From a virus, in the IMG/VR virus record IMGVR_UViG_3300028920_002952, positions 1 to 29,326 of that record: DNA of 29,326 nt, one strand, 5' to 3'. Shown in pieces: positions 5,830 through 19,262 of this stretch. Position numbers and translations under genes: made by a program. Below the pieces are notes generated by a model. It had not been told where the DNA came from, made no database searches, and saw only the letters and a list, made by a program, of their open reading frames with translations. Numbering within the stretch: the first letter of the stretch is position 1; each line of letters starts with the position of its first letter.

Positions 5830-5899
5830 CCTTATCTCCTTTCATTGTGTTGATTGCCAAAACTGTTTCTATGTGTTTAATTTTGTTGTCAAAAGCTGC

Positions 5900-5928
5900 A
5901 CTATAACACAATTGAAAACAAAAGTAAA
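5900..5928 (-). promoter_or_regulatory. Sigma70-like promoter for the replication operon
   Basis: On the minus strand TTTACT (5928-5923), a 17-base spacer, then TATAGT (5905-5900): four and five of six consensus positions. It lies just after the terminator. The -35 is inside one arm of a 22-base dyad and the -10 is in the loop, so a dimeric repressor or activator could act here. Confidence 0.55.
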
Positions 5929-5933
5929 CACAT

Positions 5934-5961
5934 AAAAAATGGGGGATTGCTCCCCCATTTT
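5934..5961 (-). terminator. Rho-independent terminator after the 5983-7308 gene
   Basis: On the minus strand AAAATGGGGGA, a GCAA tetraloop, then TCCCCCATTTT, with the T-run extending to six Ts before ATG. The stem is 11 bp. It would stop the upstream operon before the replication genes. Confidence 0.8.
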
Positions 5962-5982
5962 AGGATATATGGTACTTTGTTT

Positions 5983-7308
5983 TTACGATTTAGGCCAAGC
6001 TTGCGCTACGTGGTAGTAATCCAGATCCGGTTTTTCACGTATAATCAATGTTATGTAAATACTTTTCTCGCGGTACTTGCGAAGCAAACCTTTGATTTTG
6101 GTTTTTGCCCTCGCTTCAGGTATGTCATACTTTTCAGAAACCTTTTTGGCAATATCGCCAAATGTGCCACCTTGCTCGATTAAAGCAGTAATGAAGGACC
6201 GGATGGTGTCTTTGCCAAACCCATACTTGTCAACGCTATCTCGCTTTTGAGTTTGCCGTTGTGCAATCTTGCTCTCTCTGGTGGAACGCCTTTTGATCTT
6301 CCTGCTTTTGGGTTTTTCTCTGCGTTTGATTTTTCTGCGTTTTGGTTGTCCGGTTTCGGGTAATGCCTTTCTTCTTTTGATTGATCGCTTTTGGGTTTTT
6401 ATCTCGGGAATCCATGCTTCGCCATTAAATACAAATGTCACATTGATCAGGGTAACTTTGTCACCCTTTTTTGCCGTAGGAGTCATGGCGTCCAGTACTT
6501 CTTTTATTTTCTCATCCGTGGACTTTTCCTTACGGCGATCTATTCCCGGATCAATGTCATTCTTAACGCCCATAGATTTACATGCTGCCTTGAAAGCTTG
6601 GTTGATTTTCTCGATGAAATCTTTGGGGCAAGGATCACCTTTGTTCTCCCACTTTACCTTGACATTCCCAAGGTATTTAATTGCCGTATCCACTACGTTT
6701 GGATCAACGTTATTAAATAACGTTTGCCCTGTTGGTGTGTGTACGATGTATACCTTTTGTTTTGGGCCTGTTTTGGCAACAAATGTTGGGAGTTCCGCCG
6801 GTTTTTTCTCGCCGTCCCCAGCCATAAACTCCTTGTAATTTTCTTCGGTCAGCGGAGCCTTCCCGCCGCCGCTCGGTCCGGGTTCGCGGGAAACTTCCGC
6901 ATCATCCGGGTTCGCGGGGTCATCTGAGACTTCCGCATCATCCGGGTTCGCGGGGTCATCTGATCCAGCCCGTTCATCCGTCGCTTTCTCAGGCGTCGCT
7001 TCGGGCGCATCCGCATCCGTGGTGTCTTTTGGATCGGGTTCGCCTTGAGCTTCTTCGGGTGGGGGCGCATCAGGGCGTTCCAGTTCGGCAAGTCTTGCCT
7101 TGTGATCGGCGTATTGCCTACACTTGGAACACGAGACATCAACCACGCCAAGGTCGTCAAATGGCAAAACGATCCGCTGTTTGTCACAACGGGCATAGTA
7201 CTGCCCAATGGCATCTGCGTTCCCGGGCCACATTTTCTCTCCCTGGATGGCGTAATGCACCAATGTCCCTGCTGCTGGTTTACCAAAAACCAATTTGTCC
7301 TCAGCCAT
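5983..7308 (-). CDS. KIKRR-repeat protein with acidic linker and C-terminal helical domain
   Basis: 441 residues; not recognised as a known family. The N-terminus has a CxxC (C60, C63) and perhaps C41. An acidic proline-rich linker (about 78-150) contains a 12-residue tandem repeat, SDDPANPDDAEV, at 116-127 and 128-139. A globular middle (about 175-300) follows, then SIKRR/KIKRR/KIKRR at 309-313, 326-330 and 337-341. The C-terminal domain (365-415, with TFGDIAKKVSEKY and ARAKTKIKGLL) looks like a helix-turn-helix. Start: AAAGGAGG before ATATTTATG. The linker DNA is much more GC-rich than the rest. Nucleic-acid binding is likely; it may be a transcription or replication factor. Confidence 0.8.
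   Translation of the reverse strand: MAEDKLVFGKPAAGTLVHYAIQGEKMWPGNADAIGQYYARCDKQRIVLPFDDLGVVDVSCSKCRQYADHKARLAELERPDAPPPEEAQGEPDPKDTTDADAPEATPEKATDERAGSDDPANPDDAEVSDDPANPDDAEVSREPGPSGGGKAPLTEENYKEFMAGDGEKKPAELPTFVAKTGPKQKVYIVHTPTGQTLFNNVDPNVVDTAIKYLGNVKVKWENKGDPCPKDFIEKINQAFKAACKSMGVKNDIDPGIDRRKEKSTDEKIKEVLDAMTPTAKKGDKVTLINVTFVFNGEAWIPEIKTQKRSIKRRKALPETGQPKRRKIKRREKPKSRKIKRRSTRESKIAQRQTQKRDSVDKYGFGKDTIRSFITALIEQGGTFGDIAKKVSEKYDIPEARAKTKIKGLLRKYREKSIYITLIIREKPDLDYYHVAQAWPKS
6893..6964. repeat. 36-bp tandem repeat, two copies, within the 5983-7308 gene
   Basis: Units 6893-6928 and 6929-6964 differ only at the last base. A partial third unit (CCGGGTTCGCGGG) lies just before. They encode the in-frame acidic repeat SDDPANPDDAEV, so copy-number change would lengthen the linker without frameshift. 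Confidence 0.85.
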
Positions 7309-7402
7309 AAATATCCTCCTTTGTTAAGTTGATACACCAACTAAACATACGATGATTCATATGCTTAGTTGGTGGGGGAACCGAAGTTCCCCCTGCCACC
7401 TA
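7309..7402 (-). promoter_or_regulatory. Intergenic hairpin cassette 2
   Basis: Hairpin 1 is at 7374-7393: GGGGGAAC, UUCG, GUUCCCCC on the minus strand. Hairpin 2 is at 7335-7374, with CACCAACTAA/TTAGTTGGTG outside and an inner stem containing a G-U pair. The leader ATCAACTTAACAAAGGAGG then reaches the 7308 start. Hairpin 2 starts where hairpin 1 ends, with no U-tract. Confidence 0.8.
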
Positions 7403-7927
7403 CTAAAATCGAGAATCGCGCAAATCAAAAACGCGGTCATCAGCAAACAGGAACTGCTCAGCCTTGTCAGCATTCTCAGGGGTATCTAACTCTTCAAGCA
7501 TTGCGTCTATTTGATGCAGCATATGAAGTCCGAGTGCTGCATGCCTATCAACAAGCTTGCCGCCGTGTTCCCTGAGCCATTCAATCGTAGCCCACTTAAA
7601 TTCATCCCATTCAGAATCATCTAACTGAGGTTTTGGACTGTTCTCGCTTATGTCCATGATCGGGTACAGACATAGAAACATACCGTTTAGGACAAGAGTG
7701 CAAAGATGCGCCGGTTCCTGAATGTACACGCCAGTCGCATGAATGAATTGGCGCTGAAAGTCTTTTTGCATCTTCGGTGGGTCGATCAACTTTGCATCGG
7801 AGATGAAAGTTGGGAGTTCCCAACAAGTGCTCAGCTTTGAACGCACCAATAGTGTCATGTTCTGGTGTGTGGTTAGGCCCACCATGACGATGTGTTGTCC
7901 GGTAGGCATCTCTGGTACTTGATCCAT
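7403..7927 (-). CDS. Unknown protein with faint Nudix-like features
   Basis: 174 residues from the ATG at 7927, chosen because AAAAGGAGAACTT precedes it and the cassette leader TGGCAATCACAC is just upstream; a 16-residue longer frame has no ribosome site. HIVMVGLTTHQNMTLLVRSKLSTCWELPTF resembles the opening strands of a Nudix hydrolase, and FQRQFIHATGVYI could align with the REUxEExGU helix. However, the catalytic glutamates and the leading glycine are absent, so if it is a Nudix fold it is probably inactive as a hydrolase. The C-terminal 70 residues are acidic and helical. Function unknown. Confidence 0.75.
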   Translation of the reverse strand: MDQVPEMPTGQHIVMVGLTTHQNMTLLVRSKLSTCWELPTFISDAKLIDPPKMQKDFQRQFIHATGVYIQEPAHLCTLVLNGMFLCLYPIMDISENSPKPQLDDSEWDEFKWATIEWLREHGGKLVDRHAALGLHMLHQIDAMLEELDTPENADKAEQFLFADDRVFDLRDSRF

Positions 7928-7994
7928 AAGTTCTCCTTTTCTAAGTGTGATTGCCAATACTACAGAGGTTGGCACCCATCTGGTTTAGGCGTAG
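7928..7994 (-). promoter_or_regulatory. Short leader cassette 3
   Basis: This holds the leader TGGCAATCACACTTAGAAAAGGAG and a small stem, TGCCAA/TTGGCA. The two large hairpins seen in other cassettes are missing, so this is a reduced form. Confidence 0.55.
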
Positions 7995-8303
7995 TTATGC
8001 GTCGGTAGTTTGTATAATGTCAAGGATTGCGTTGAAAAAGAAGTATAGCTCTCCAATATCTGTCATGTAATATTTGGTATCGGTTACCACATTTTCTACG
8101 ATGATGAATCCGGGCTTGTCAGTGTTCTCATCAGTTATGATGTTGTACTGGAAAACTCCCGGTGTCATTTTACTTGCGTTGATGATATCAATAACAAACT
8201 TGACCTGTTCGATGGTTATGCGGTTGTAATGCTCCTTCCGAAACTGGTCAAATGCGGAATTGAAAAACGGATACGACTTAAAGGCAACGTCTAAGTTATC
8301 CAT
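7995..8303 (-). CDS. Small protein of unknown function
   Basis: 102 residues; not recognised. It reads as an alpha/beta protein (FKSYPFFNSAFDQF, then QVKFVIDIINASK, strands FQYNIITDEN and GFIIVENVVTDTKYYMTD, and a final helix). There is no signal peptide, cysteine motif or membrane span. The start at 8303 follows AAAGGGAGGATTGA. It has its own upstream hairpin cassette and is separated from the next gene only by a short leader, so it is probably co-transcribed with 7403-7927. Confidence 0.72.
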   Translation of the reverse strand: MDNLDVAFKSYPFFNSAFDQFRKEHYNRITIEQVKFVIDIINASKMTPGVFQYNIITDENTDKPGFIIVENVVTDTKYYMTDIGELYFFFNAILDIIQTTDA

Positions 8304-8413
8304 TCAATCCTCCCTTTCAGTTGTGGGTGCCATAAATAAGCGGCACGAACGGTTGCTCATGCCCTTATTTATGGCGGGGGCCGAAGCCCCCTGCCAAGTG
8401 TAGCATGTTGATG
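8304..8413 (-). promoter_or_regulatory. Intergenic hairpin cassette 4
   Basis: Hairpin 1 is at 8376-8391 (GGGGGC, UUCG, GCCCCC on the minus strand). Hairpin 2 is at 8329-8375, with a 12-bp outer stem GCCATAAATAAG/CTTATTTATGGC and an inner stem with two G-U pairs. The leader ACAACTGAAAGGGAGG follows. Confidence 0.8.
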
Positions 8414-9283
8414 TTAAACATCGAGTTTGCGTTTGAAGTTCATTTTGGGTATTGCTTCAATCCGGCCAATGATCTTGCCGAGCTTTTCACTGGCCTTGTT
8501 ACGAAAGTCTTCGTTGTTTTTCAAACGGTCGGCAGAAGTACGGGCCATCTGGACACGCAAGCTTTTCATAATACTGTTCATGCGCTTGTTATCAACGTGA
8601 CCATCCCAAAGGTTGCGCCATTTGTCCATGAAACCGTCCATTGCCTTGACCGTTCTCAGGTTAACAGAATCGTTGTCACATTGCGCTTTCAACGCTTCGA
8701 TACGTTTCAGCAACTCATTGCCAATGACATTCAATGTCAAGTTCTCCATCTCGGCAACCATATTCTGAAACTTACGCTGTTCGCGCTTGTACATCTCAGG
8801 TGACAGGATTTCAGTTTCTTCATCGGGGATTGTGAACTGAAAGAAATTCCACGTAAAACGATGCCGTTTGATTAAAGCGGCTTTTGTGGGATACTTGCGT
8901 TCATTGTAGTATTCGGGGTACTTCCGACGAAACCGGCGTTTCATTTTCTGGAGACCATCAGCAAGCTGCAATGCCTGACGTTCATACAAGCGTTTCAGTT
9001 CACCGAACTTGTCATCCAGCTTGGGTATGTGATCCCGGCGTACCCAAAACACACCACGTACAGGAAACGGAAGCGAGTTCTCAATCAGAAATGACTTCGC
9101 TTGCCGCTTGATCGAATGAATGTCTTTGATCAAGGTTTTATCCTCAATCAAGTCTTGCATTGCCCGTACGATCTCCTTGGGTACTTCATCGCCCAGCTTG
9201 TCTTTGGACATACGAGAAGTAGCGGCCCAACGTCCAATGTTCAGTTGACACAATGCACCCTCTTGTAGTTGTTCGACTTTCAT
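8414..9283 (-). CDS. DUF3150-like protein
   Basis: 289 residues, highly charged and helical. The N-terminal pattern (L..GALCQLNIGRWAATSRMSKDKLGDEVPKEIV, then helices with LIEDKTLIKDIHSI and SFLIENSLPFPVRGVFWV) matches my memory of the DUF3150 family, whose members often sit beside AAA+ ATPase genes. Here the next gene upstream is exactly such an ATPase (9390-10820). The rest is coiled-coil-like with many basic residues (KMKRRFRRKYPEYYNE). It probably acts with the ATPase, perhaps as an adaptor or substrate-binding partner; the biochemical role is unknown. Start: AAAGGGAGGATACT before the ATG. Confidence 0.7.
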   Translation of the reverse strand: MKVEQLQEGALCQLNIGRWAATSRMSKDKLGDEVPKEIVRAMQDLIEDKTLIKDIHSIKRQAKSFLIENSLPFPVRGVFWVRRDHIPKLDDKFGELKRLYERQALQLADGLQKMKRRFRRKYPEYYNERKYPTKAALIKRHRFTWNFFQFTIPDEETEILSPEMYKREQRKFQNMVAEMENLTLNVIGNELLKRIEALKAQCDNDSVNLRTVKAMDGFMDKWRNLWDGHVDNKRMNSIMKSLRVQMARTSADRLKNNEDFRNKASEKLGKIIGRIEAIPKMNFKRKLDV

Positions 9284-9389
9284 AGTATCCTCCCTTTAAA
9301 GTGTTAATTGATTGCCATGCTACACTAAACAAAACACACGAGAAAACCCGTATGCTTTGTTTAGTGGGGGACCGAAGTCCCCACACTGG
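9284..9389 (-). promoter_or_regulatory. Intergenic hairpin cassette 5
   Basis: Hairpin 1 is at 9367-9382 (GGGGAC, UUCG, GUCCCC). Hairpin 2 is at 9323-9366: an 11-bp outer stem CACTAAACAAA/TTTGTTTAGTG and a 7-bp inner stem with two G-U pairs. Leader: GGCAATCAATTAAC then AAAGGGAGG. Confidence 0.82.
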
Positions 9390-10820
9390 TTAAGCGTCAA
9401 TCTTCCTGCGTCGCTTCAAAGGTGTAACCTTGCCACCTTTGATAGACTTCTCCGCTGATATACAACGGTCTTTAGCCCATTCGCGCAGTTGTTCAACATT
9501 TTCAGCCATCGTTTTTGCTTGCGGTATGATGGTATCGGCTGCTGCCTTTAATGAAATACCACGCATGGAAGCGATGTGTACGAGAGCTTCAATTTCAGCA
9601 CCGGAAAACAGATCCATCTTCGGTGCCAATTTGCAATCGATTTTGGCTTTCTTGCAGTAGTGCTCCAAGATGTTCTTTCTTACTTCGGGCGTTGGTAAGT
9701 CAATAAAGAACGGTGAAGTATCCCAACGTCCAGGTCGCAAGTACTCTCCGGGTATACCGGCAAAACTGTTGGCAGTACCTACGATGTAAACACCCTGTGG
9801 ACGATTCTGCAAAAAGTCCAACCACCGACCAGTTGCACGTCGCGTTGTACCACTGTCAAGTGATCCGTCGCTTGACGCACCAGCAAACTGCTTTTCAAAT
9901 TCATCCACCAGCACAATGCAATCTCCAATTGCCGTAATCAGATCAATTACCGTGTTGATGTTCTGATCGGTTTCACCTTGGAACTTACTGAACAAGCTTC
10001 CCATGTTGACACTAAGGCCAAACTTGCCGGTTTCTCCAACCAGTGCTTTCATAAAGGATGTCTTGCCACAACCTGGAGGGCCAATTGCCATAATACCTTT
10101 TGCCCGAGGATCATCAATGGTCTCGAGCGTAAAATCTTTAATGACATTATACCCAATTACATCCGCGAATGTGAGGTCCCCGGCAAGGACGTCAAGAAAG
10201 CCCGTTTTCTGTATAGCTTGTGCTTTATGGTCGTTGATCGTGCTGACCTTGAAGCTTTCTCCTTCAGTTTCGACTATACTTAGTGCTAAAACATTCTCCA
10301 ATTCAGCACGGGCCAATCCCTTGCACGAGTTCACCAAACGGTGCATGTCACCGTTGCTTTCGGGCAACACGTCCTTGCTTGGTGCCATATGGTTTATGAT
10401 ATGGGTGATTTCCTCAGTATCGGGTAATGACAGGTCGAGCAGAACAAAATCTTTTGAAAGCTCCGGCGGGATTTCATTTGTGTGTGATACGCAAATGATC
10501 GCCTTGCCTTGGTTACCCCATATTCTCAGGTTGTCTTGAATGGTCTGGACAACTCCGGGTTGCTTGCTGAACCAATGCCAATTGTACAGGAACATAAGAT
10601 TGTAGTCTTCGGCACTGTTTAATGCGTCAAGCGGTGATTTGGGGTCCTTGTTTTGATGCGACATTGACCACTCGTTGATGTTATACTGTCCGCCATCTTT
10701 ACGTGTGAACGCTTTGATGGTTTCGTACACCGTTGCACGTACATGGTCAGGCTCCGACGTTCTCAGCCAAAATGCACTGAAACCCGCTCGCAGATAGTTA
10801 ATGATCTTGTCCGCTTTCAT
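9390..10820 (-). CDS. Ycf46-like AAA+ ATPase
   Basis: 476 residues. An N-terminal domain (1-200) has the features of Ycf46-type proteins: SPLDALNSAEDYNLMFLYNW, AIICVSHTNEIPPEL, then LPDTEEITHII. The AAA+ core has Walker A GPPGCGKT (247-254), Walker B IVLVDEFE (302-309), sensor 1 GTAN (348-351) and the FtsH-like RPGRWD (362-367) carrying the likely arginine finger. A C-terminal helical lid follows and the protein ends in a basic LKRRRKIDA tail. It likely forms a ring and remodels a protein partner. Neighbours with DUF3150, DUF1257 and DUF2997 features suggest one module. The start at 10820 follows AAAAGGAGGATATT. Confidence 0.9.
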   Translation of the reverse strand: MKADKIINYLRAGFSAFWLRTSEPDHVRATVYETIKAFTRKDGGQYNINEWSMSHQNKDPKSPLDALNSAEDYNLMFLYNWHWFSKQPGVVQTIQDNLRIWGNQGKAIICVSHTNEIPPELSKDFVLLDLSLPDTEEITHIINHMAPSKDVLPESNGDMHRLVNSCKGLARAELENVLALSIVETEGESFKVSTINDHKAQAIQKTGFLDVLAGDLTFADVIGYNVIKDFTLETIDDPRAKGIMAIGPPGCGKTSFMKALVGETGKFGLSVNMGSLFSKFQGETDQNINTVIDLITAIGDCIVLVDEFEKQFAGASSDGSLDSGTTRRATGRWLDFLQNRPQGVYIVGTANSFAGIPGEYLRPGRWDTSPFFIDLPTPEVRKNILEHYCKKAKIDCKLAPKMDLFSGAEIEALVHIASMRGISLKAAADTIIPQAKTMAENVEQLREWAKDRCISAEKSIKGGKVTPLKRRRKIDA

Positions 10821-10956
10821 AATATCCTCCTTTTAGTTGGTTGATTGCCTTCCTGGTATATTTGACCAGTTTAAGAACACTCTCGGTTCGCTGACAGTGT
10901 GCTTAAATTGATCGGGGGGCCGAAGCCCCCCAATACACAGTCCCAGTTCGCGGTGT
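10821..10956 (-). promoter_or_regulatory. Intergenic hairpin cassette 6
   Basis: After the small gene's stop come CGCGAACTGGGA (10952-10941 on the minus strand), hairpin 1 at 10914-10931 (seven base pairs capped by UUCG), hairpin 2 at 10864-10913 (GATCAATTTAAG with CTTAAACTGGTC, one G-U and one A-C), and the leader GGCAATCAACCAACTAAAAGG. Confidence 0.82.
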
Positions 10957-11055
10957 TTACGGATTCATCAGATTGTAAATCACGCTACCCCACGAGACGA
11001 TGATTACGAAACAACATACGATCATTGCATATGCTCGGGCTTCGGCCGTTTTCAT
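10957..11055 (-). CDS. 32-residue single-span membrane peptide
   Basis: A short frame below usual ORF cut-offs: MKTAEARAYAMIVCC at the start, then FVIIVSWGSVIYNLMNP. Residues 10-27 (AMIVCCFVIIVSWGSVIY) form one hydrophobic span with a charged N-terminus, so a membrane peptide is likely. It is supported by CTAAGGAGGCGACC before the ATG, a short gap (10 bases) after the DUF1257 gene, and a full cassette straight after its stop. It is placed between the DUF1257 gene and the AAA+ ATPase and may tether or regulate that module. Function unknown. Confidence 0.7.
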   Translation of the reverse strand: MKTAEARAYAMIVCCFVIIVSWGSVIYNLMNP

Positions 11056-11065
11056 GGTCGCCTCC

Positions 11066-11443
11066 TTAGTAATTGACAACAAGTTGGATGTCACCGTTTT
11101 CCAACGTTTCTTTGTTGAAGTCCTGCAACTTGTCGAAAGGCAGGTTGTCCATTACAACGCTTTCATTGTAGGACTGCAGCAACTTGCCGAGTTGGTTGAT
11201 TGTATGGGAAGCAGAACCGAAGTGATCGTACATAATTTCACCACTTGCGGTTACCGCCAAAGGATACCGCCAACCGAGCAAATGAATTTCTGCTGCACTC
11301 TTCACGGCATTGCTGCCATAGTGCTGAACGGTCAGGTAACTGCCATTCTCGGCTATTTTAGCTTTGTGACCGTGGTCTATAGCAATTGCGCAGAACCGAC
11401 TAATGTCAGTGATCTTCTGCTTATAGGTTGTCGTGTGACTCAT
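11066..11443 (-). CDS. DUF1257 family protein (Ycf35-like)
   Basis: 125 residues beginning MSHTTTYKQKITDISRF, close to the MSHFTTIKTxIxD opening typical of DUF1257/Ycf35 proteins. The rest also fits: a G-Y/W strand segment (LGWRYPLAVTASGEIMYDHFG) and a final helix with LGKLLQSYNESVV, plus NKETLENGDIQLVVNY. The family's molecular role is not known to me. The gene sits immediately downstream of the DUF2997 gene and upstream of the 32-residue peptide and AAA+ ATPase; I recall the same grouping in other genomes. Start: AGGAGAGTAAAAGCA before the ATG. Confidence 0.82.
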   Translation of the reverse strand: MSHTTTYKQKITDISRFCAIAIDHGHKAKIAENGSYLTVQHYGSNAVKSAAEIHLLGWRYPLAVTASGEIMYDHFGSASHTINQLGKLLQSYNESVVMDNLPFDKLQDFNKETLENGDIQLVVNY

Positions 11444-11467
11444 TGCTTTTACTCTCCTATTTTGAGG

Positions 11468-11665
11468 TTAACCGCAGTATCCGTTACCGACGCCGTTGAC
11501 CAAGGTGTCCCCGTTTTCGTAATAGGAATCCTTGTACTTGCGCTTGTCGATACCGAAAATCTCATCGAGGAAAGCAGTTGCTTCCTCACACGAACCACCC
11601 TTAAAGCCTTCCGCTTCGACCTTAATGGTGCCGTCCTTGCCAAGCAAGATTTTTACCTGTTTCAT
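11468..11665 (-). CDS. DUF2997 family protein
   Basis: 65 residues. VKILLGKDGTIKVEAEGFKG, then GSCEEATAFLDEIFG and KYKDSYYEN, matches the DUF2997 signature (DG.v...GF.G.sC..at..l...lG). A single conserved cysteine is at residue 25. It is a small soluble protein usually found next to a DUF1257 gene, as here, with about 24 bases between them. Function unknown; it is probably a partner of the DUF1257 protein in the ATPase module. Start: AAAAGGAGGATATT before the ATG, preceded by a full hairpin cassette, so this gene opens the module. Confidence 0.82.
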   Translation of the reverse strand: MKQVKILLGKDGTIKVEAEGFKGGSCEEATAFLDEIFGIDKRKYKDSYYENGDTLVNGVGNGYCG

Positions 11666-11774
11666 AATATCCTCCTTTTAGTTGGTTGATGTTGCCATAT
11701 ACTACAAATAGGAACACAGAGCAAGCCCTATGTGCCTATTTGAAGGGGCGAGAATACCGTCTCGCCCATTCGGG
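11666..11774 (-). promoter_or_regulatory. Intergenic hairpin cassette 8
   Basis: Hairpin 1 is at 11746-11767 (GGGCGAGA, six-base loop, TCTCGCCC). Hairpin 2 is at 11705-11742, with outer stem CAAATAGG/CCTATTTG and a broken inner stem. The leader GGCAACATCAACCAAC then leads to AAAAGGAGG. Confidence 0.8.
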
Positions 11775-11978
11775 TTAGTCATTCTGTTTTAATTTCATGC
11801 GTCGTGCCAGTGCATCCATGTGAAAAGTATAAATGTGTGGATGCGTACTTTCCTCCAAACCAAACGGTACGGTTCCATCTTTGATTATTGCTTCAGTTTT
11901 GAGAACCTGAGCAATAGCTTTAAGCTGATCGTCCGGTATTGGTTTGTAGGCGTGGATGATATAGCTTTCGGTTGTCAT
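11775..11978 (-). CDS. Small protein of unknown function
   Basis: 67 residues; not recognised. It has a beta-alpha-beta feel (SYIIHAYKPI, DDQLKAIAQVLKTEAII, HIYTFHMDAL) and a basic C-terminus (RRMKLKQND). No cysteines and no membrane span. The ATG overlaps the stop of the 11978-12193 gene by one base (TAATG), so translation is probably coupled to it. Confidence 0.68.
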   Translation of the reverse strand: MTTESYIIHAYKPIPDDQLKAIAQVLKTEAIIKDGTVPFGLEESTHPHIYTFHMDALARRMKLKQND

Positions 11979-12841: not shown

Positions 12842-12949
12842 ATATCCTCCTTTTGTTAAGTTGGTTTGCCAGTACTCCAGATAAAGGTATAACAGACTTC
12901 GCTATACCCTTATCTGGAGGGGCAAGTTGCCTTGCCCGACCATTCAATA
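12842..12949 (-). promoter_or_regulatory. Intergenic hairpin cassette 9
   Basis: Hairpin 1 is at 12920-12937 (GGGCAAG, GCAA tetraloop, CTTGCCC). Hairpin 2 is at 12875-12919, with 17 paired positions (CTCCAGATAAGGGTATA with TATACCTTTATCTGGAG), one of them G-U. Leader: TGGCAAACCAACTTAACAAAAGG. Confidence 0.84.
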
Positions 12950-13297: not shown

Positions 13298-13298
13298 G

Positions 13299-13748
13299 CT
13301 AACCTCTCTTTTTTCCCATTTGGGTCCATACTTGGTTTTTGGCAATGCGGATCATTTTGGTAACAATCCGCTCCAAGATTTCAGACAACCGCTTTACTTC
13401 GGGCAAGTTGCCATACTGCCATGCTTCGAGCAATTGCGTACCGAGATTTGGCAGATAGTTGAAGTCAGCCGAACGTGCATTGTTACTCGACGAAATATCA
13501 GTCGGTTTTAACTTGTCCGGTACAATTACTGACGTTTTGTTTGACGTCAGGCGTTCAACCGTAGCGGTTAGGGAGTCGATGGTATCGTTCTGCTCATCGG
13601 TATAATCAATGAGCAATTGCAATGCAACGTTATCCATCTGGTTGAGATTGCCAACCAGTTCATCGAAGTATTCACTGATATCCTCAGGGAAACCTTCTTT
13701 GATTCGGTTAGCCAGTATAAGATCCAAACGCCTTTTACCCTTTGCCAT
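13299..13748 (-). CDS. Helical/coiled-coil protein of unknown function
   Basis: 149 residues from the ATG at 13748, chosen for AAAGGAGGGTATT just before it. MAKGKRRLDLILANRIKEGF is basic. A segment at about 45-75 (NVALQLLIDYTDEQNDTIDSLTATVERL) is heptad-like and could form a coiled coil, so the protein may be oligomeric. The C-terminus is basic (MIRIAKNQVWTQMGKKRG). No catalytic motif; not recognised. Its stop is one base from the next start, so the two genes are coupled. Confidence 0.7.
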   Translation of the reverse strand: MAKGKRRLDLILANRIKEGFPEDISEYFDELVGNLNQMDNVALQLLIDYTDEQNDTIDSLTATVERLTSNKTSVIVPDKLKPTDISSSNNARSADFNYLPNLGTQLLEAWQYGNLPEVKRLSEILERIVTKMIRIAKNQVWTQMGKKRG

Positions 13749-13873
13749 AATACCCTCCTTTAAAGTTGTGATTTGCCTCTTGTGCGAAATTGCACAAGTC
13801 AAGAACCACGATTTCTCATGGGTCTTGATTTGTGGGGACGGTGCGTTAACACCGTCCCAGTTCGCGGGGTACT
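13749..13873 (-). promoter_or_regulatory. Intergenic hairpin cassette 10 with alternative pairing
   Basis: CGCGAACTGGG (13866-13856) overlaps hairpin 1 at 13835-13858 (nine-base arms GGGACGGTG/CACCGTCCC). Hairpin 2 at 13793-13834 has a GAAA loop on the minus strand. A third stem, 13779-13785 with 13792-13798, shares bases with the arm of hairpin 2, so only one of them can form at a time. Confidence 0.78.
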
Positions 13874-14272
13874 TTATTTGCCTCGTTTGATATACTTTTT
13901 TACCAAGGCAGCGAACTCGTTGTCATAGAAAGACACCGATACATACTGACTGTCCTGTGGATAAATGGTTGCCATTCCATAAGTTGAGAACTCAACATGG
14001 AAGACCTTGCCATCGATCTCAAGCATAACTACCGCTTCGGCGTAAGTGCATTTCTTCGGTTTGTTGGTTCGGCCGTTGAAAGTCGACTGCTTTACCATAC
14101 GCATCTTGTCGCCCTTTTTATTGGGTTCGATCCAGAAATGCATCGAACACCGTTTGGATCGACCGTAGGGCCAATCCTCGATAGTGAAGTCATCGGGCAA
14201 AAGTTTGGCATTGAGCAAGTCATCCAGTTCGGGCATAAGCTTGTCTTTACCGTACTCTTCGCGTACTTGCAT
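13874..14272 (-). CDS. Small protein of unknown function
   Basis: 132 residues from the ATG at 14272 (AAAGGAGGATATT before it); a longer frame has no ribosome site and would run through the hairpin. It begins MQVREEYGKDKLMPELDD. The middle and end alternate strands (MHFWIEPNKKGDKMRMV, AVVMLEIDGKVFHVEFST, YVSVSFYDNEFAALV), so a beta-rich fold is likely. Basic C-terminus (KKYIKRGK). No recognised family. Confidence 0.7.
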   Translation of the reverse strand: MQVREEYGKDKLMPELDDLLNAKLLPDDFTIEDWPYGRSKRCSMHFWIEPNKKGDKMRMVKQSTFNGRTNKPKKCTYAEAVVMLEIDGKVFHVEFSTYGMATIYPQDSQYVSVSFYDNEFAALVKKYIKRGK

Positions 14273-14375
14273 AATATCCTCCTTTAAAGTTAATTGATTG
14301 CCAGTACTCCAAATAAAGACACATATCGCTTTTGACATATGTCTTTATTTGGAGGGGCGGTTGCCCGCCCTCCAA
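14273..14375 (-). promoter_or_regulatory. Intergenic hairpin cassette 11
   Basis: Hairpin 1 is at 14355-14370 (GGGCGG, GCAA, CCGCCC). Hairpin 2 is at 14307-14354, a 12-bp perfect outer stem (CTCCAAATAAAG/CTTTATTTGGAG) followed by more pairing after a bulge. Leader: GGCAATCAATTAAC then AAAGGAGG. Confidence 0.84.
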
Positions 14376-14591
14376 CTACTTGTGCAACCTTTCGGTCTTA
14401 GCATAGATTCTGTGTGTGCATTCGCGGTTATTGTAAAACACGACTGCCAACACTTCACCTCTGCTATTTGTGAAATTGGTACTTTCCTCACCGGTTTTAT
14501 GGTAAGTCCAGTTCGGGTCCTGTTTGCGCAACCATGCCGCAAACTGGTGGTCGCCCCATTCAACAAGCGTAAAGCCATGCATTTCAGCCAT
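14376..14591 (-). CDS. Small protein of unknown function
   Basis: 71 residues from the ATG at 14591, with AAAGGGGGTCGTA in front; a longer frame lacks a site. It begins MAEMHGFTLVEWGDHQFAAW. It looks like a small alpha/beta protein with aromatic residues and a strand pair (EVLAVVFYNN, THRIYAKT). It overlaps the end of the upstream gene by eight bases. Not recognised. Confidence 0.66.
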   Translation of the reverse strand: MAEMHGFTLVEWGDHQFAAWLRKQDPNWTYHKTGEESTNFTNSRGEVLAVVFYNNRECTHRIYAKTERLHK

Positions 14592-15123
14592 TACGACCCC
14601 CTTTGTACCATTCCGGTACATCATCGTAATGTGTGTGCTTCATCGGATAATGAGAAGTGTGTTCTCTCAGAAGCTTGTCAATCTCCTCACATGCTGAAAC
14701 CGGAACGCCGTTGGCACGTGGATGATACAGGTAAAACGTTGAATATCTCACCTTGTCATAATCAAGCCGATGTTCATTGACAAAGGCGAACAACCATCCC
14801 TGCGGCAAGGCAGGGTCGAAACTGGTTTTGCTAATACCCATTAGATTCGCCAGTTCAGCGCCGGTCAGGTTGAGATTTTCCAACACTTCCCAATCGAAGG
14901 TATTGTACTCGAAGTCGGGGCAATTCTCTGCTACTGCATCACCACCAATGTCAATACCATTGGGTTCGGGTTTCGTGTCGATTTGCACGTACCGGTTACA
15001 CGAACGGCAATATGCTGTTTGCAAGATCCGGTTTGTATGCATTCTCGGTGGTTGCCATACCATCTCGTGATTTCTGGCCTTGCACGACTCGGTCGCTTGT
15101 TTACGCAATTCATCCAATTTCAT
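14584..15123 (-). CDS. Protein with a CxxC site and an IDIGGDAVA motif, function unknown
   Basis: 179 residues. The N-terminal half has HEMVWQ, AYCRSC (C39, C42), and PNGIDIGGDAVAENCP. I recall this arrangement (CxxC followed by a P-N-G-I-x-I-G-G-x-A-V-A stretch) in small phage and bacterial proteins of unknown function. A zinc site from C39, C42, C68 and a histidine is plausible. The middle (NLTGAELANLMGISKTSFDPAL) resembles a helix-turn-helix. The C-terminus is rich in His and Tyr. The start at 15123 follows AAAAGGAGGATATT. Confidence 0.72.
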   Translation of the reverse strand: MKLDELRKQATESCKARNHEMVWQPPRMHTNRILQTAYCRSCNRYVQIDTKPEPNGIDIGGDAVAENCPDFEYNTFDWEVLENLNLTGAELANLMGISKTSFDPALPQGWLFAFVNEHRLDYDKVRYSTFYLYHPRANGVPVSACEEIDKLLREHTSHYPMKHTHYDDVPEWYKGGRNG

Positions 15124-15238
15124 AATATCCTCCTTTTAAGTTAAGTGATTGCCATTGTTCTACTCCAACAAAAGATATAAACTGTCGCTTATATCTTTTG
15201 TTGGAGGGGCAGCAATTCTGCCCTTCCGTTTTATCACG
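15124..15238 (-). promoter_or_regulatory. Intergenic hairpin cassette 12
   Basis: Hairpin 1 is at 15207-15223 (GGGCAG, five-base loop, CTGCCC). Hairpin 2 is at 15163-15206, with a perfect 16-bp stem CTCCAACAAAAGATAT/ATATCTTTTGTTGGAG. Leader: GGCAATCACTTAAC then AAAAGGAGG. Confidence 0.84.
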
Positions 15239-15317
15239 GCGATAGGTTGGTCAATTTGCCCGGAGTCGGTGACCATGATCCAACTCAACTATCCGTTACG
15301 GGAACATCTCCTATCGC
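15239..15317. other. 79-base element closed by an 8-bp perfect stem
   Basis: GCGATAGG (15239-15246) pairs with CCTATCGC (15310-15317). Inside, GGTCA/TGACC, GTTGG/CCAAC and CCCG/CGGG can form competing stems. It is extra sequence not found in the other cassettes. I tested it as a tRNA on both strands: no T-arm or D-arm consensus. It may be a structured RNA or a binding site; no supported gene. Confidence 0.4.
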
Positions 15318-15324
15318 TTTGACA

Positions 15325-15753
15325 CTAATCCATTAAAGTATTGCACAGGGAGTCGGTTGCTGCTTTTCTCGAGCGAAACGAAAAACTCCACAGATCATTG
15401 TACCACATCGTACGCCCATGTTTGTCAAGATCACGCCAAACTTCTCCCAGTTCGCGCTTGCCAAATATGACAAGGTAACGTCCGGGTTCAGTTTTGCGGA
15501 ATCGGGGTTTGATACCAGTCGCTTCCCACTGCGAAAAGCAGAAGTCAAATCGGTTGGTTTCAGTAAGCCGGTCGCTCGGGCCGTACATGCCGTGTTTGAT
15601 CGGAACTTCAACACGCTCAGGCATTGTCTTCCAAGTTTTTGGTTTGCCTGTTACCCGATACTTGATCGGCATACCCTTTGAATCACGATACAGGGTCGAC
15701 CAAATTTCAACGTGGTAATCCAGCTTCTTAGCTTTCTCCAATGAAATTGCCAT
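15325..15753 (-). CDS. Small basic protein of unknown function
   Basis: 142 residues; not recognised. It begins MAISLEKAKKLDYHVEIWST and is rich in Arg, Lys and Trp. Strands (YHVEIWSTLY, RYLVIFGKREL) and an aromatic patch (MWYNDLWSFSF) are visible. The codons for RELGE contain a copy of the 11-base motif CGCGAACTGGG (15456-15446). The start at 15753 follows AAAAGGAGGATATC. Confidence 0.7.
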   Translation of the reverse strand: MAISLEKAKKLDYHVEIWSTLYRDSKGMPIKYRVTGKPKTWKTMPERVEVPIKHGMYGPSDRLTETNRFDFCFSQWEATGIKPRFRKTEPGRYLVIFGKRELGEVWRDLDKHGRTMWYNDLWSFSFRSRKAATDSLCNTLMD

Positions 15754-15861
15754 GATATCCTCCTTTTAGTTGATTTTTGCCTCACAGAAAGGTACAGGTC
15801 GCTTTAACCTATACCCTTTTGTGAAACGGGACCGGCATGCCAACCGGTCCCAGTTCGCGGG
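15754..15861 (-). promoter_or_regulatory. Intergenic hairpin cassette 13
   Basis: CGCGAACTGGG (15859-15849) runs into hairpin 1 at 15828-15851 (GGGACCGG/CCGGTCCC). Hairpin 2 at 15782-15824 has 18-base arms with two G-U pairs and one A-C. Leader: GGCAAAAATCAACTAAAAGG. Confidence 0.82.
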
Positions 15862-16017
15862 TTACTTTTTGGAATAGCTTTTGATCAGGTCTTTTCTGCG
15901 CCATTGCGCTTCACGTCGGTCGCAACCGGTATAAACGGGGCGTCCATTAACGAAAACGGCATAGGAATACTGATCGTCGCCCATGTACTTGCCAATCGTG
16001 ATTTTTGGCTTTGCCAT
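15862..16017 (-). CDS. Very small basic protein of unknown function
   Basis: 51 residues from the ATG at 16017, two bases after the upstream stop and preceded by GGATGGTAATT. It begins MAKPKITIGKYMGDDQYSYA. Strand-rich, then a basic helix (REAQWRRKDLIKSYSKK). One cysteine. Not recognised; coupled to the gene before it. Confidence 0.66.
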   Translation of the reverse strand: MAKPKITIGKYMGDDQYSYAVFVNGRPVYTGCDRREAQWRRKDLIKSYSKK

Positions 16018-16019
16018 AA

Positions 16020-16544
16020 TTACCATCCAATCTTTGCTTGATCCCACATTGCCGCTACAGGATCGCCCTTATGCGGTTTCTCCAACACGATAAATTCGTA
16101 CAGACTCATCATGTATTTGATAATGTGGTCGGTTTTGACATACTGGTCGATTTTACCATCAATCGCCACCACTGATCTTGACTTCGGTGCAATGGCGCTA
16201 ATCCGCCATTTTGCACCTTTCAACATATGACCATGAATCGCACAACCGGCACCGTTTGGATCCGGATTCGGGTTATACTCAAAAGAAGCATGCACCATAC
16301 CGTTTTCGGCCATCGGTGTGTGATTTTCGCCATAATGCCTTACTTCGCCAAAACCCAAATTGACATTCAGTATGCCACTGGAGATTTCGTCCCTTTTGGC
16401 ATATTCAATTTGGACTTTGGCAACGCCCCACTCGAACCGATATTCGCGGTTCATGTTTGTGTTGGTAGTCGGAAACTCTTTAACAGGGTATCGTCCAACC
16501 AAGTCAAGTAGTGCGTCGGTCAAAGCCATTTGATGCTTTTCCAT
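16020..16544 (-). CDS. Beta-rich protein of unknown function
   Basis: 174 residues; not recognised. Alternating strands are seen (YRFEWGVAKVQIEYAKRD, GILNVNLGFGEVRHYG, MVHASFEYNPNPDPNG, WRISAIAPKSRSVVAIDG). A helical tail (IIKYMMSLYEFIVLEKP) follows. The start at 16544 has AAAAGGGGGATAA, a slightly altered ribosome site. No catalytic signature. Confidence 0.7.
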   Translation of the reverse strand: MEKHQMALTDALLDLVGRYPVKEFPTTNTNMNREYRFEWGVAKVQIEYAKRDEISSGILNVNLGFGEVRHYGENHTPMAENGMVHASFEYNPNPDPNGAGCAIHGHMLKGAKWRISAIAPKSRSVVAIDGKIDQYVKTDHIIKYMMSLYEFIVLEKPHKGDPVAAMWDQAKIGW

Positions 16545-16708
16545 TTATCCCCCTTTTCAGTTGATTTTTGCCACACATCCAACAAAAGGTACACATCGGT
16601 TTTGACATATACCCTTTGTTGGATCGGCAAACGTAAGGTGCTTGCCAATCCCAGTTCGCGTTAGCTGTTGTTGAACGGGATCAACCAAGCAGTTGATCCC
16701 AGTTCGGG
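16545..16708 (-). promoter_or_regulatory. Intergenic hairpin cassette 14 with doubled first hairpin
   Basis: Two compact hairpins follow each other: 16677-16700 (GGGATCAAC/GTTGATCCC) and 16621-16651 (TTGCCAATCC with GGATCGGCAA), each preceded by a CGAACTGGG motif. Hairpin 2 (16577-16624) shows three G-U pairs over a 20-base arm and shares four bases with the second compact hairpin. Leader: GGCAAAAATCAACTGAAAAGG. It looks like a duplicated hairpin-1 unit. Confidence 0.8.
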
Positions 16709-17065
16709 TTACAAATAGCTGATCGTGAGTTCAAGATACCACATGCTCGGTCCGCTTTTGCCAATACGCTTGCGCTTGCAATCGTATTTGATGCGTGGTG
16801 CATCAGTTCGGTTGGAATTGTGCTTGCGCATCTTTCGCATGGGTACGCCCATCTTTCGGGCAACCTTTTTGACTTCGGACAAAGCCGTTTCAATATGCGG
16901 TTTGCGCTTCGTCTTAAAAATCACAAAGTAGCTGCTCTGGCCGTTTTTGCGTGGAATCGTGTTGAAACGTACGTTGCACTTGTCCCAGTTCGCGCCAGCA
17001 CTTTTGGTGCGCACTTTAATGCCCATTTCGTCCAGGATCCCATTTCTGATTGCTTTTGCTTCCAT
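16709..17065 (-). CDS. Strongly basic protein of unknown function
   Basis: 118 residues, very rich in Lys and Arg (KTKRKPHIETALSEVKKVARKMG, MRKMRKHNSNR, KYDCKRKRIGKSG). A nucleic-acid-binding role is likely from charge alone. Family not recognised. SAGANWDKCN is encoded across a copy of the CGCGAACTGGG motif, in a different frame from the copy in the 15325-15753 gene. The start at 17065 follows AAAAAGGAGAAGTAAA and the leader GGCAATCAACA. It is the first gene of the 7-17 kb series. Confidence 0.7.
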   Translation of the reverse strand: MEAKAIRNGILDEMGIKVRTKSAGANWDKCNVRFNTIPRKNGQSSYFVIFKTKRKPHIETALSEVKKVARKMGVPMRKMRKHNSNRTDAPRIKYDCKRKRIGKSGPSMWYLELTISYL

Positions 17066-17121
17066 TTTACTTCTCCTTTTTAAAAATGTTGATTGCCAGC
17101 GCCGCTTCCCAGTTCGCGGCG
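17066..17121 (-). promoter_or_regulatory. Leader cassette 15 before the 16709-17065 gene
   Basis: A compact GCCGC/GCGGC stem containing the CGAACTGGG motif, then TGGCAATCAACA and AAAAAGGAG. No long second hairpin. Confidence 0.55.
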
Positions 17122-17435
17122 AAAATTGAAAGCTTTGTTGACGTTTGACACACGCATGATCCCAGTTCGCGCTTGCAAGTGATCCCAGTTCGCGGGGGCA
17201 TTTTGCCCTATAGGAAATCCGGTTTGGGTCTTGACTGCATAATTGCGCCTAACTATGCCTAACTATGCCTAACTATGTATAATTATAGGTAATTATACCT
17301 AATTACATGCAGTTATACCTAATTATAGGCAATTTTTTACACAATCTATAACTATGCCTAATTATGCATAATTATAGGCAATTTTTTACCTATGGCTTAT
17401 TGTGTTAAAAAGCTTGTGCAATGCAACAAAAAACG
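17122..17435. repeat. AT-rich iteron-like array, no gene
   Basis: Three tandem copies of CCTAACTATG-like units lie at about 17247-17278, followed by interlocking TAATTATAGG, TTATACCTAATTA and GGCAATTTTTTAC units to about 17390. The last is repeated (CCTAATTATAGGCAATTTT and CATAATTATAGGCAATTTT). The first part (17122-17200) has two CCCAGTTCGCG copies. No gene or ribosome site is seen. The layout resembles iterons plus an AT-rich unwinding region, so it is a candidate origin. Confidence 0.55.
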
Positions 17436-17485
17436 AAAAAAGCACAAAGCCCCTTTGCACACAAAAGCATGCAAAGGGGCTTGTG
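17436..17485 (-). terminator. Rho-independent terminator ending the AT-rich gene block
   Basis: On the minus strand CACAAGCCCCTTTGCA, a ten-base loop, then TGCAAAGGGGCTTTGTG (one bulged base) and CTTTTTTCGTTTTTT. Long GC-cored stem and two T-runs. It lies directly after the stop of the 17486-17584 gene. Confidence 0.8.
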
Positions 17486-17584
17486 TTAAACTGGTAAAGG
17501 CAAATTTAATGTAAATGCAAAAAAACTATAAAACACAATAAAACTAATAAACATGCCATGAATAACACAAAAAGCTTTTAACAT
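17486..17584 (-). CDS. 32-residue hydrophobic peptide
   Basis: Too short for normal ORF calling. MLKAFCVIHGMFISFIV begins it and LNLPLPV ends it, and residues 11-25 are almost all hydrophobic or aromatic, so a membrane peptide is likely. Support: AAAGGGGCTTATA before the ATG (the same site type as its neighbours), a full hairpin cassette upstream (17627-17713), and a strong terminator right after the stop. It has the same length as the peptides at 10957-11055 and 18994-19092. Function unknown. Confidence 0.6.
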   Translation of the reverse strand: MLKAFCVIHGMFISFIVFYSFFAFTLNLPLPV

Positions 17585-17729
17585 TATAAGCCCCTTTCAT
17601 TTTAAAATTATGTGTCAAAAGTCAATGCCATATCAAAAGCCATAAGCACACAAAAAAACTTGCTTATGGCTTTTGATATGGCTTTGTGTCTTGTCAATAA
17701 AACAAGACACAAAAGCCTTTAAAAACTTG
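17585..17729 (-). promoter_or_regulatory. AT-rich hairpin cassette 16
   Basis: Hairpin 1 is at 17683-17713 (12-base arms TTTGTGTCTTGT/ACAAGACACAAA). Hairpin 2 has arms 17627-17648 and 17661-17682, a perfect 22-bp stem. The leader ATGAAAGGGGCTTATA runs to the ATG at 17584. Same order as in the GC-richer cassettes. Confidence 0.8.
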
Positions 17730-17897
17730 CTAACGTTTTAGCTTGTTCATTTGTTCAACTTTATCAATCAAACGTTTTTTTTCACGTTCAAGTGATTGTG
17801 TCAAAAATCGTTCAAACCTTTTGTTTTCATCATAACGAAAAAACTTGAACGGGTTTAAATGACTGTTTTGAAATGTCAAATCGTTTTCAAGATGCAT
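17730..17897 (-). CDS. Small basic protein of unknown function
   Basis: 55 residues from the ATG at 17897, which has AAAGGGGCTTGAAA in front; an earlier in-frame start lies within the leader. It begins MHLENDLTFQNSHLNPFKFF. The second half (RFERFLTQSLEREKKRLIDKV) is a charged amphipathic helix that could form a coiled coil. AT-rich codons. Not recognised. Confidence 0.62.
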   Translation of the reverse strand: MHLENDLTFQNSHLNPFKFFRYDENKRFERFLTQSLEREKKRLIDKVEQMNKLKR

Positions 17898-18029
17898 TTT
17901 CAAGCCCCTTTCATTAAGTTGATTGTGTACCATTTGCTAAGGGGCTTATAAGCCCCTTATAAGCCCCTTAGCAAATGCAAGGGGCTTGTGTGCATAACAC
18001 ACAAGCCCCTTTGCCTTTGATTGTGTCAA
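17898..18029 (-). promoter_or_regulatory. AT-rich hairpin cassette 17
   Basis: Hairpin 2 has arms 17931-17952 and 17956-17977, a perfect 22-bp stem with a three-base gap. Hairpin 1 spans 17979-18011 with 14-bp perfect arms (AAGGGGCTTGTGTG). Leader: ACACAATCAACTTAATGAAAGG. AAGGGGCTT words form both stems. Confidence 0.82.
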
Positions 18030-18320
18030 TTACTTGGTAGTTAAAACCTGTAACATAGAATCCAGAAATGTTAGTTCATTATGTGTTAATTTATTCAAGA
18101 TGGCTTGCAATTTGTTACAGTCATCTTGACTTATGATTTGACTGTCAAAATCAGACCAAAAGTCAATGATATCATCACTTGCAATGATATGCATTTCATT
18201 TTGAGCATTTTCAATTAGCAAAGCCAAATCATGCAAAGAAATGTCACACAATAAACTTGCCATTTTTGTGTTTGTTTCAATACGTTCTATTGCCTTTGGA
18301 TCAATTGCATTGTCTACCAT
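18030..18320 (-). CDS. Small acidic helical protein of unknown function
   Basis: 96 residues; not recognised. It begins MVDNAIDPKAIERIETNTKM. Mostly helical (LHDLALLIENAQNEMHII, DDCNKLQAILNKLTHNELTF), acidic, with no zinc site and no membrane span. The ATG at 18320 follows AAAGGGGCTTATAA and the leader CACAATCAACTTAATG, shared almost base for base with the 17730-17897 gene, so the two are expected to be regulated alike. Confidence 0.68.
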   Translation of the reverse strand: MVDNAIDPKAIERIETNTKMASLLCDISLHDLALLIENAQNEMHIIASDDIIDFWSDFDSQIISQDDCNKLQAILNKLTHNELTFLDSMLQVLTTK

Positions 18321-18464
18321 TTATAAGCCCCTTTCATTAAGTTGATTGTGTACCATTTGCAAAGGGGCTTATAAAAAGCCATAAAAGCCCCTTATAAGCC
18401 CCTTTGCAAATGCAAGGGGCTTGCATGCATAACACACAAGCCCCTTTGCCTTTGATTGTGTCAA
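18321..18464 (-). promoter_or_regulatory. AT-rich hairpin cassette 18
   Basis: Hairpin 2 has arms 18354-18374 and 18392-18412 (21 bp perfect, CATTTGCAAAGGGGCTTATAA). Hairpin 1 spans 18414-18446 with AAGGGGCTTG/CAAGCCCCTT. Near-duplicate of cassette 17 with a longer loop. Confidence 0.82.
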
Positions 18465-18872
18465 TTACTTGACAGGTTTAAACCAAAGTTTAACACGTTT
18501 TGACAATGGAAAAGTCTTTTTACGTGAAACGAAACCAGCAATGTATTTCAATTTACGCATATGCTTTGTGGCGGTTTCGACTTCATTGTACTTGTGAACG
18601 TGAAAAACTGGCTTTTTGCTTTCATTGTCTTTAATAGCTACAAAAAAGCCATTTTCGGCAATGCATGCGGCAACGTCAAAGCGGTTGTTCTTGCCTTGTT
18701 TTTCAACGTGCACCAATGGTTTCAAGCCATTAGTAAATGACTTTGCCATACTAAAAACTTCATTGACTTTCATATTGCTTGTCAATGGCTTGTATGACCA
18801 TTTACAATTGCCAGCGTTTAACGTTTCAATAAAGTAAGCCTTGGTTTCTTTGTTCATTTCATAAATTGCCAT
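18465..18872 (-). CDS. Basic protein of unknown function
   Basis: 135 residues from the ATG at 18872, chosen because GAAAGGAATGGAAAA precedes it; a longer frame would run through the upstream hairpins. It begins MAIYEMNKETKAYFIETLNA. Alternating strands and helices (DVAACIAENGFFVAIKDNES, KPVFHVHKYNEV, HMRKLKYIAGFV) with a basic tail (RKKTFPLSKRVKLWFKPVK). One could read a small nucleic-acid-binding fold, but no family is recognised. Confidence 0.68.
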   Translation of the reverse strand: MAIYEMNKETKAYFIETLNAGNCKWSYKPLTSNMKVNEVFSMAKSFTNGLKPLVHVEKQGKNNRFDVAACIAENGFFVAIKDNESKKPVFHVHKYNEVETATKHMRKLKYIAGFVSRKKTFPLSKRVKLWFKPVK

Positions 18873-18993
18873 TTTTCCATTCCTTTCAAATAAAGTTGTA
18901 TGATTGCCTTGTGTGAAACCATTTTCACACAATAAAAAGCTTGAAACGTTCAAGCCCTTTATTGTGTGCAAGGGGCTTACAAGCCCCTTGAAA
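18873..18993 (-). promoter_or_regulatory. AT-rich hairpin cassette 19
   Basis: Hairpin 1 is at 18969-18990 (CAAGGGGCTT/AAGCCCCTTG, two-base gap). Hairpin 2 is at 18926-18968 with CACACAATAAA/TTTATTGTGTG outside and GCTTGAA/TTCAAGC inside. Leader: GGCAATCATACAAC, then GAAAGG. Confidence 0.8.
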
Positions 18994-19092
18994 CTAAACA
19001 CACATTGAAAGCAAATAACTAACGGCTATAGTGCAAAAAGAATAATAAGGGAAAAGCCTAATTACCATAGAATGCTTTGTAAAGTTTTTCAT
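18994..19092 (-). CDS. 32-residue peptide, possibly membrane-associated
   Basis: Short frame: MKNFTKHSMVIRLFPYYS, then FCTIAVSYLLSMCV. A basic N-terminus precedes a hydrophobic stretch (about residues 13-32). Support: GAAAGGTTAAAAA before the ATG, a candidate promoter 40 bases upstream, and a hairpin cassette starting three bases after its stop, as for every other gene in this series. Most upstream minus-strand gene I can support. No recognised family. Confidence 0.55.
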   Translation of the reverse strand: MKNFTKHSMVIRLFPYYSFCTIAVSYLLSMCV

Positions 19093-19131
19093 TTTTTAAC
19101 CTTTCAAGTTATTGTGTTTTTATGTTCACTA

Positions 19132-19161
19132 ATTATATCGACACAATAAAGAAAAACTTAA
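19132..19161 (-). promoter_or_regulatory. Candidate promoter for the 19092 gene
   Basis: On the minus strand a perfect TATAAT (19137-19132), 18 bases after a weak TTAAGT (19161-19156). It lies about 40 bases upstream of the ATG. The -35 match is poor, so activator help or chance are both possible. Confidence 0.35.
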
Positions 19162-19180
19162 TCAAAAAAATTAAGTTTTT
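19152..19180. terminator. AT-rich hairpin with T-runs on both strands
   Basis: AAAAACTTAAT (19152-19162) pairs with ATTAAGTTTTT (19170-19180). A T-run follows the stem on either strand, so it could act as a weak bidirectional terminator. It overlaps the candidate promoter. Confidence 0.4.
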
Positions 19181-19187
19181 TCATATT

Positions 19188-19262
19188 CCTTTTTTTAAGC
19201 ACACAAAAAGCACAAAGCCCCTTGTGTGCTTAAAAAAAGGGGCTTGCACAAGGCAAGCCCCT
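19188..19262. promoter_or_regulatory. Orphan hairpin pair (cassette 20) with no gene attached
   Basis: A perfect 19-bp stem (19188-19206 with 19222-19240) is followed by AGGGGCTTGC/GCAAGCCCCT (19238-19262). On the plus strand the next bases, TGGCATTCAACTTTAAAAGG, copy the usual leader, but the ATG position is degraded (ATATTTC). This looks like a decayed or inverted cassette. Confidence 0.55.

Follow-up and report, generated by a model that had tools for sequence, protein, structure and literature searches.

What do the paired hairpins that recur between the early genes of this phage do to its messenger RNA? The window, meaning the whole stretch of 29,326 nucleotides that was analysed, is a 29.3 kb phage record (IMG/VR IMGVR_UViG_3300028920_002952) with a late operon (terminase, portal, capsid) on the plus strand and early genes on the minus strand, encoding a primase, a helicase, an AAA ATPase, a DUF3150 protein and many small products. 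A preliminary description had listed about fifteen minus-strand gaps sharing the order hairpin, hairpin, leader and start codon. We folded each gap and scanned both strands for adjacent hairpins, with two dinucleotide-shuffled controls, and re-derived 16 such gaps among the early genes, from 7.3 to 19.3 kb, each with two hairpins placed end to end.

Architecture of the intergenic cassettes

All 16 copies follow one order: a compact hairpin (HP1), a hairpin of 17-27 bp (HP2), a short leader, an SD and a start codon. HP1 and HP2 are separated by 0 nt in 14 copies and by 1 nt in two, and no pair in either dinucleotide shuffle joined energies as low with a flush junction. The leader resembles GGCAAUCAACUUAAC in most copies, the SD is strong, and the start codon lies 25-53 nt after HP2. 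The HP1 loops are those described earlier, with cUUCGg in four copies (gaps before 7308, 8303, 9283 and 10820) and GCAA in three. Eleven of the gaps lie in a block of 45% GC and four in an AT-rich block, where two copies (17925..18011 and 18348..18446) are near-duplicates; the outermost copy is at 19188-19259. The cassettes are listed below with the position of an AAG triplet in HP2, followed by a variant from the other edge of the region.

7328..7393, minus strand: cassette before gene 5983-7308; HP1 7374-7393 (UUCG), HP2 7336-7373, AAG at bp 8
8322..8391, minus strand: cassette before gene 7995-8303; HP1 8376-8391 (UUCG), HP2 8329-8375, AAG at bp 10
9305..9382, minus strand: cassette of the gap immediately downstream from the ATPase gene, before gene 8414-9283; HP1 9367-9382 (UUCG), HP2 9323-9366, AAG at bp 10
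10843..10931, minus strand: cassette before the AAA-ATPase gene 9390-10820; HP1 10914-10931 (UUCG), HP2 10864-10913, AAG at bp 10; this gap holds a hammerhead in nine relatives
11684..11767, minus strand: cassette before gene 11468-11665; HP1 11746-11767, HP2 11702-11745, AGG instead of AAG
12863..12937, minus strand: cassette before gene 12551-12841; HP1 12920-12937 (GCAA), HP2 12875-12919, AAG at bp 9
13768..13858, minus strand: cassette before the gene ending at 13299; HP1 13835-13858, HP2 13793-13834, AAG at bp 9
14296..14370, minus strand: cassette before the gene ending at 13874; HP1 14355-14370 (GCAA), HP2 14307-14354 (21 bp), AAG at bp 10
15151..15223, minus strand: cassette before gene 14584-15123; HP1 15207-15223, HP2 15163-15206, AAG at bp 10
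15772..15851, minus strand: cassette before gene 15325-15753; HP1 15828-15851, HP2 15779-15827, AAG at bp 10
16563..16647, minus strand: cassette before gene 16020-16544; HP1 16625-16647, HP2 16577-16624, AAG at bp 9
17627..17713, minus strand: AT-block cassette; HP1 17683-17713, HP2 17627-17682, AAG at bp 11
17925..18011, minus strand: AT-block cassette before gene 17730-17896; HP1 17979-18011, HP2 17931-17977, AAG at bp 9
18348..18446, minus strand: AT-block cassette before gene 18030-18320; HP1 18414-18446, HP2 18354-18412, AAG at bp 9
18926..18990, minus strand: AT-block cassette before the gene ending at 18465; HP1 18969-18990, HP2 18926-18968, AAG at bp 10
19188..19259, minus strand: outermost copy; HP1 19241-19259, after which comes a terminator-like T run; HP2 19188-19240, AAG at bp 10
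5868..5960, minus strand: variant at the other edge; HP1 is a U-tract terminator (5936-5961), HP2 is long and AT-rich, lacks AAG and contains a promoter-like sequence (5928-5900)

Double-hairpin cassettes are absent from the late operon and from genes located below 5.8 kb, as well as from the gaps between overlapping genes and from gap 7928-7997. At the DNA level, the early region had no match among GenBank phages.

Other repeats were observed in the same region. The sequence CGAACTGGGA (mostly GCGAACTGGGA) has ten exact copies, all on the minus strand within window positions 10941-17192 (at 10941, 13855, 15445, 15848, 16649, 16697, 16983, 17107, 17160 and 17183), where about one is expected even with a mismatch. 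It often stands just before HP1, two copies lie inside genes in different frames, and it is absent from the relatives that were fetched. The AT-rich block, and only that block, repeats AGGGGCTT 37 times (17447-21740; 0.7 expected), and this sequence also serves as the SD of the block's genes; a large part of 19.3-22 kb seems to be non-coding. In two AT-block copies the 3' arm of HP2 complements the SD. An anti-SD role was rejected because of this abundance of AGGGGCTT and because the other copies do not follow. A strand exchange between HP1 and HP2, in which the 5' flank of HP1 resembles the 3' base of HP2, holds in some copies only, and we found no support for the earlier suggestion of translation control by a phage factor. 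At the protein level, basic stretches such as KRKIKRR recur in several phage proteins (window 5212-5829, 5983-7308 and 22237-22800), in some of them several times and C-terminally, and the protein encoded before the terminase has one at its N terminus as well.

Selection on the RNA

The stems differ between copies while their pairing is kept, as had been proposed. Changes on both sides were found at 15 of 18 aligned HP2 pairs; 95.5% of the alignment cells are paired, against 70.6% in shuffles, and the covariation score is 0.746 against 0.271, with slid controls at or below 0.19. These pairing statistics are somewhat overstated, since the stems were used to trim the alignment rows, which favours structure; yet every stem is palindromic by itself. 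The copies within one genome are, moreover, paralogues, so that their counts are not all independent.

The excess of G-U over A-C pairs, given before as about a dozen against about three, proved stronger: 24 against 4 in 11 HP2 stems (p = 2e-4, with G-T and A-C scored alike and copies treated as independent), which indicates selection on the minus-strand RNA. In 18 of 19 gaps the minus strand is also the better folding strand. Taken together, the G-U bias, the two-sided changes and the minus-strand folding support selection on RNA and not on DNA, in agreement with the preliminary description, which had argued against DNA operators.

A covariance model of HP2 trained on the 45% GC block found the AT-block copies at 17629-17680 (E 0.0014) and 18928-18966 (E 0.002); therefore the element continues into that block with different stems, as had been claimed. 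The same model matched an untrained copy in a related viral record, L007, at 7823-7869 (E 0.002).

A conserved box in HP2

A 5'-AAG/CUU-3' box lies in HP2, 8-11 bp above the base, in 15 of the 16 copies. Among 15 HP2 stems, 14 have an AAG starting at bp 8, 9, 10 or 11, where 2.1 are expected, and 14 was not reached in any of 20,000 shuffles; for any fixed triplet in any register, 1,500 shuffles gave at most 10 stems. The 16th, outermost copy also has AAG, at bp 10. The box is common to the 45% GC and AT-rich blocks, whose stems otherwise share little.

The RNase III sites of T7, refolded at coordinates that we take to be those of the T7 map, have AAGG/CCUU at the base of an upper stem of about 10 bp, over a lower stem of about 9 bp, and are cut about 3 nt 3' of the CUU. 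This T7 box is reported to be dispensable in vitro. The position of R1.1, 5887, agrees with the literature (PMC8708148), and the CUU of the T7 sites falls at the place of the proximal box, which sits -4 to -6 from the cut (PMC4357697). For E. coli RNase III no strong consensus has been found, and a 12 bp stem with a tetraloop suffices for one-strand cutting (PMC8708148). In the cassettes, the HP2 stem of all 16 copies, at 17-27 bp, exceeds these 12 bp and is thus long enough for RNase III, and 15 of the copies carry the CUU/GAA box at the base of an upper stem of about 10 bp. An internal loop below the box, which would limit cutting to one strand, is absent from most copies, whose lower stems are paired. 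The ACCU motif of Mini-III (PMC4357697) occurs in three copies only.

A model built from the T7 sites recovered R6.5, a site on which it had not been trained, and therefore works; against the window its best match was no better than E 1.2 and no cassette rose above chance. Conversely, the HP2 model found none of the T7 sites. As the two models match in neither direction, the likeness to T7 rests on the 3-bp box and the geometry.

Ribozymes in the same gaps of related phages

The ATPase gene gave the best handle on relatives, with 11 viral records at about 44-66% identity. Searches with the DUF3150 protein, the helicase and the product of gene 16020-16544 returned no relatives; the leader pattern had a single, unrelated match in viral contigs, and the major capsid protein led to an 89% relative (L009) on a contig without the early region.

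In nine of the 11 relatives (L005, L006, L007, L013-L016, L018 and L019) a type II hammerhead lies directly upstream of the orthologous ATPase gene; three of the nine fall below the Rfam cut-off but have the full core, and L005 and L006 are near-identical, so that not all of these counts are independent. Most of the hammerhead-bearing relatives have several to many further hammerheads in neighbouring gaps, and L019 adds five pistol ribozymes. In the early region of L019 the two ribozyme types stand side by side in one phage.

Double hairpins of the window's type were found in two relatives. L007 has a hammerhead before the ATPase gene and a double hairpin directly after it, where the window likewise has one; L013 has hammerheads on both sides of the ATPase gene and window-type double hairpins elsewhere. 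In L008 neither element was found. L017, also without either, has intergenic hairpins with variable stems between 3600 and 12800 (gaps near 3635, 4301, 4600, 5312, 8597, 9231, 9900 and 12635). Their internal loops are conserved, with AAUUGG on the 3' side or UUAACUU opposite ACGCUUG, and have no match to an Rfam ribozyme; these hairpins are candidates for a new ribozyme or an RNase III-type signal.

Cleavage by a hammerhead leaves an upstream mRNA that ends in one hairpin and a downstream mRNA that begins with another. Clustered phage hammerheads have been proposed to cut long transcripts into mRNAs of operon or gene length (PMC3088659). The presence of self-cleaving ribozymes at these places in relatives points to cleavage at the cassettes. 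Together with the AAG/CUU box, it is one of two new facts that bear on function.

A proposed processing site and its alternatives

We propose, as the reading that the sequences make reasonably probable, that the cassette is an intergenic mRNA-processing site cut within HP2, most likely by host RNase III, with HP1 left behind as a 3' cap. A long minus-strand transcript would run through the early genes and each gap would fold into the two hairpins, HP2 offering a double-stranded stem with its box about one helical turn above the base. If the box is placed as in T7, the cut would fall in the lower stem just below it: on the 3' arm about 3 nt past CUU in the 3' direction, and on the 5' arm near the same level, because the lower stem of HP2 is fully paired. 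The upstream mRNA would then end in HP1 and a short tail, its 3' end protected by HP1, and the downstream mRNA would begin with a short unstructured leader and a strong SD, so that one long messenger would be split into single-gene messengers.

The same model would account for the two hairpins. T7 signals need no extra hairpin, since with one strand cut the upstream product keeps the upper stem. A fully paired R1.1 stem (R1.1 WC-L), by contrast, is cut on both strands (PMC8708148), and a stem cut in this way would lose its upper part, which, we infer, would give HP1 its reason to exist.

It is unlikely, in our judgement, that the hairpins stay uncut and act as insulators and stabilisers, with HP1 stopping 3' exonucleases after decay has begun elsewhere and HP2 blocking 5' access or separating translation units. 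The very stable HP1, with its UUCG or GCAA loops, would suit such a role, as would the distance from HP2 to the start codon and the free SD; however, neither the conserved box inside HP2 nor the self-cleaving ribozymes in the relatives' gaps would be explained.

Still less probable is that the cassette is itself a self-cleaving ribozyme, either of an unrecognised new class or a reduced hammerhead, cleaving where HP1 meets HP2 in the way that the relatives' hammerheads cleave between their two hairpins. It occupies the same gaps in the same order of hairpin, hairpin and leader, and in two copies HP2 ends with UACUGGCAA, which is like UACUGAUGAGGCAA minus part of the core. However, Rfam searches, run at the gathering threshold and also with E values of up to 10 allowed, found no ribozyme or other known element in the cassette region, the leader apart there are no conserved nucleotides of a catalytic type outside the stems, and the conserved AAG lies within a helix.

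A role of the hairpins as DNA operators, or as terminators or attenuators of transcription, is very improbable. Inverted repeats can be protein sites, and the edge copies at 5961 and 19262 have U tracts; however, the stem sequences vary and the G-U bias indicates RNA of one strand. A GC hairpin with a U tract, the mark of an intrinsic terminator, is not formed by 15 of the 16 HP1 copies (at most three T in the next 8 bases), and only the outermost edge copy has the tract. Terminators are therefore unlikely for those 15 copies. Promoter matches in the region equalled the shuffle mean. On the minus strand at 5961-5900, a U-tract terminator stands immediately before a promoter-like sequence that has an extended -10 (TTTACT, 17 nt, TATAGT), ahead of the primase and helicase genes. 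Most unlikely, too, is a repetitive palindromic element that has spread between genes and has no function itself: the many copies, shared leader and two near-duplicates would fit, but the stems have strongly diverged while pairing and box were kept, and the copies, oriented with transcription, are confined to the gaps between a gene and the next SD.

Comparison with known RNA-processing systems

Type II hammerheads (RF02276) resemble the cassettes in their place, the gaps of orthologous genes, and in the order of hairpin, hairpin and leader; the cassettes differ in lacking the GAAA and CUGAUGA core and any Rfam match, and the type II pattern of GAAA and CUGANGA around two hairpins is not present in them. 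Pistol ribozymes (RF02679) are intergenic in L019, near phage genes, and had no match in the window; nor did the other Rfam models of self-cleaving ribozymes match a cassette.

The T7 RNase III signals (R0.3 to R18.5), like the cassettes, are intergenic, occur in multiple copies in an early or middle region, and place a lower stem before an SD and a start codon; both have the AAG/CUU box at the base of an upper stem of about 10 bp. A T7 signal is a single hairpin that has an internal loop and is cut on one strand, whereas in the cassettes HP2 is mostly fully paired and a separate HP1 stands in front. The T7-like RNase III model of the preliminary description thus gains from the position of the box and from the relatives' ribozymes, but is not borne out as sequence kinship: the cassette probably works like a T7 signal without being a sequence member of that group. 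This comparison draws on E. coli and T7 data, and their enzyme may not be like the host's.

Most relatives keep self-cutting ribozymes where this phage has double hairpins, and different RNA devices seem to serve one and the same task. If this is true, the split design, with HP1 as cap and HP2 as cut site, would be explained as a response to a stem that is fully paired and cut on both strands. Related phages would cleave their early mRNA at the same gene boundaries by hammerhead, by pistol ribozyme or by a protein-dependent double hairpin, a natural comparison that would show the purpose of phage ribozymes, a question open since clustered phage hammerheads were reported.
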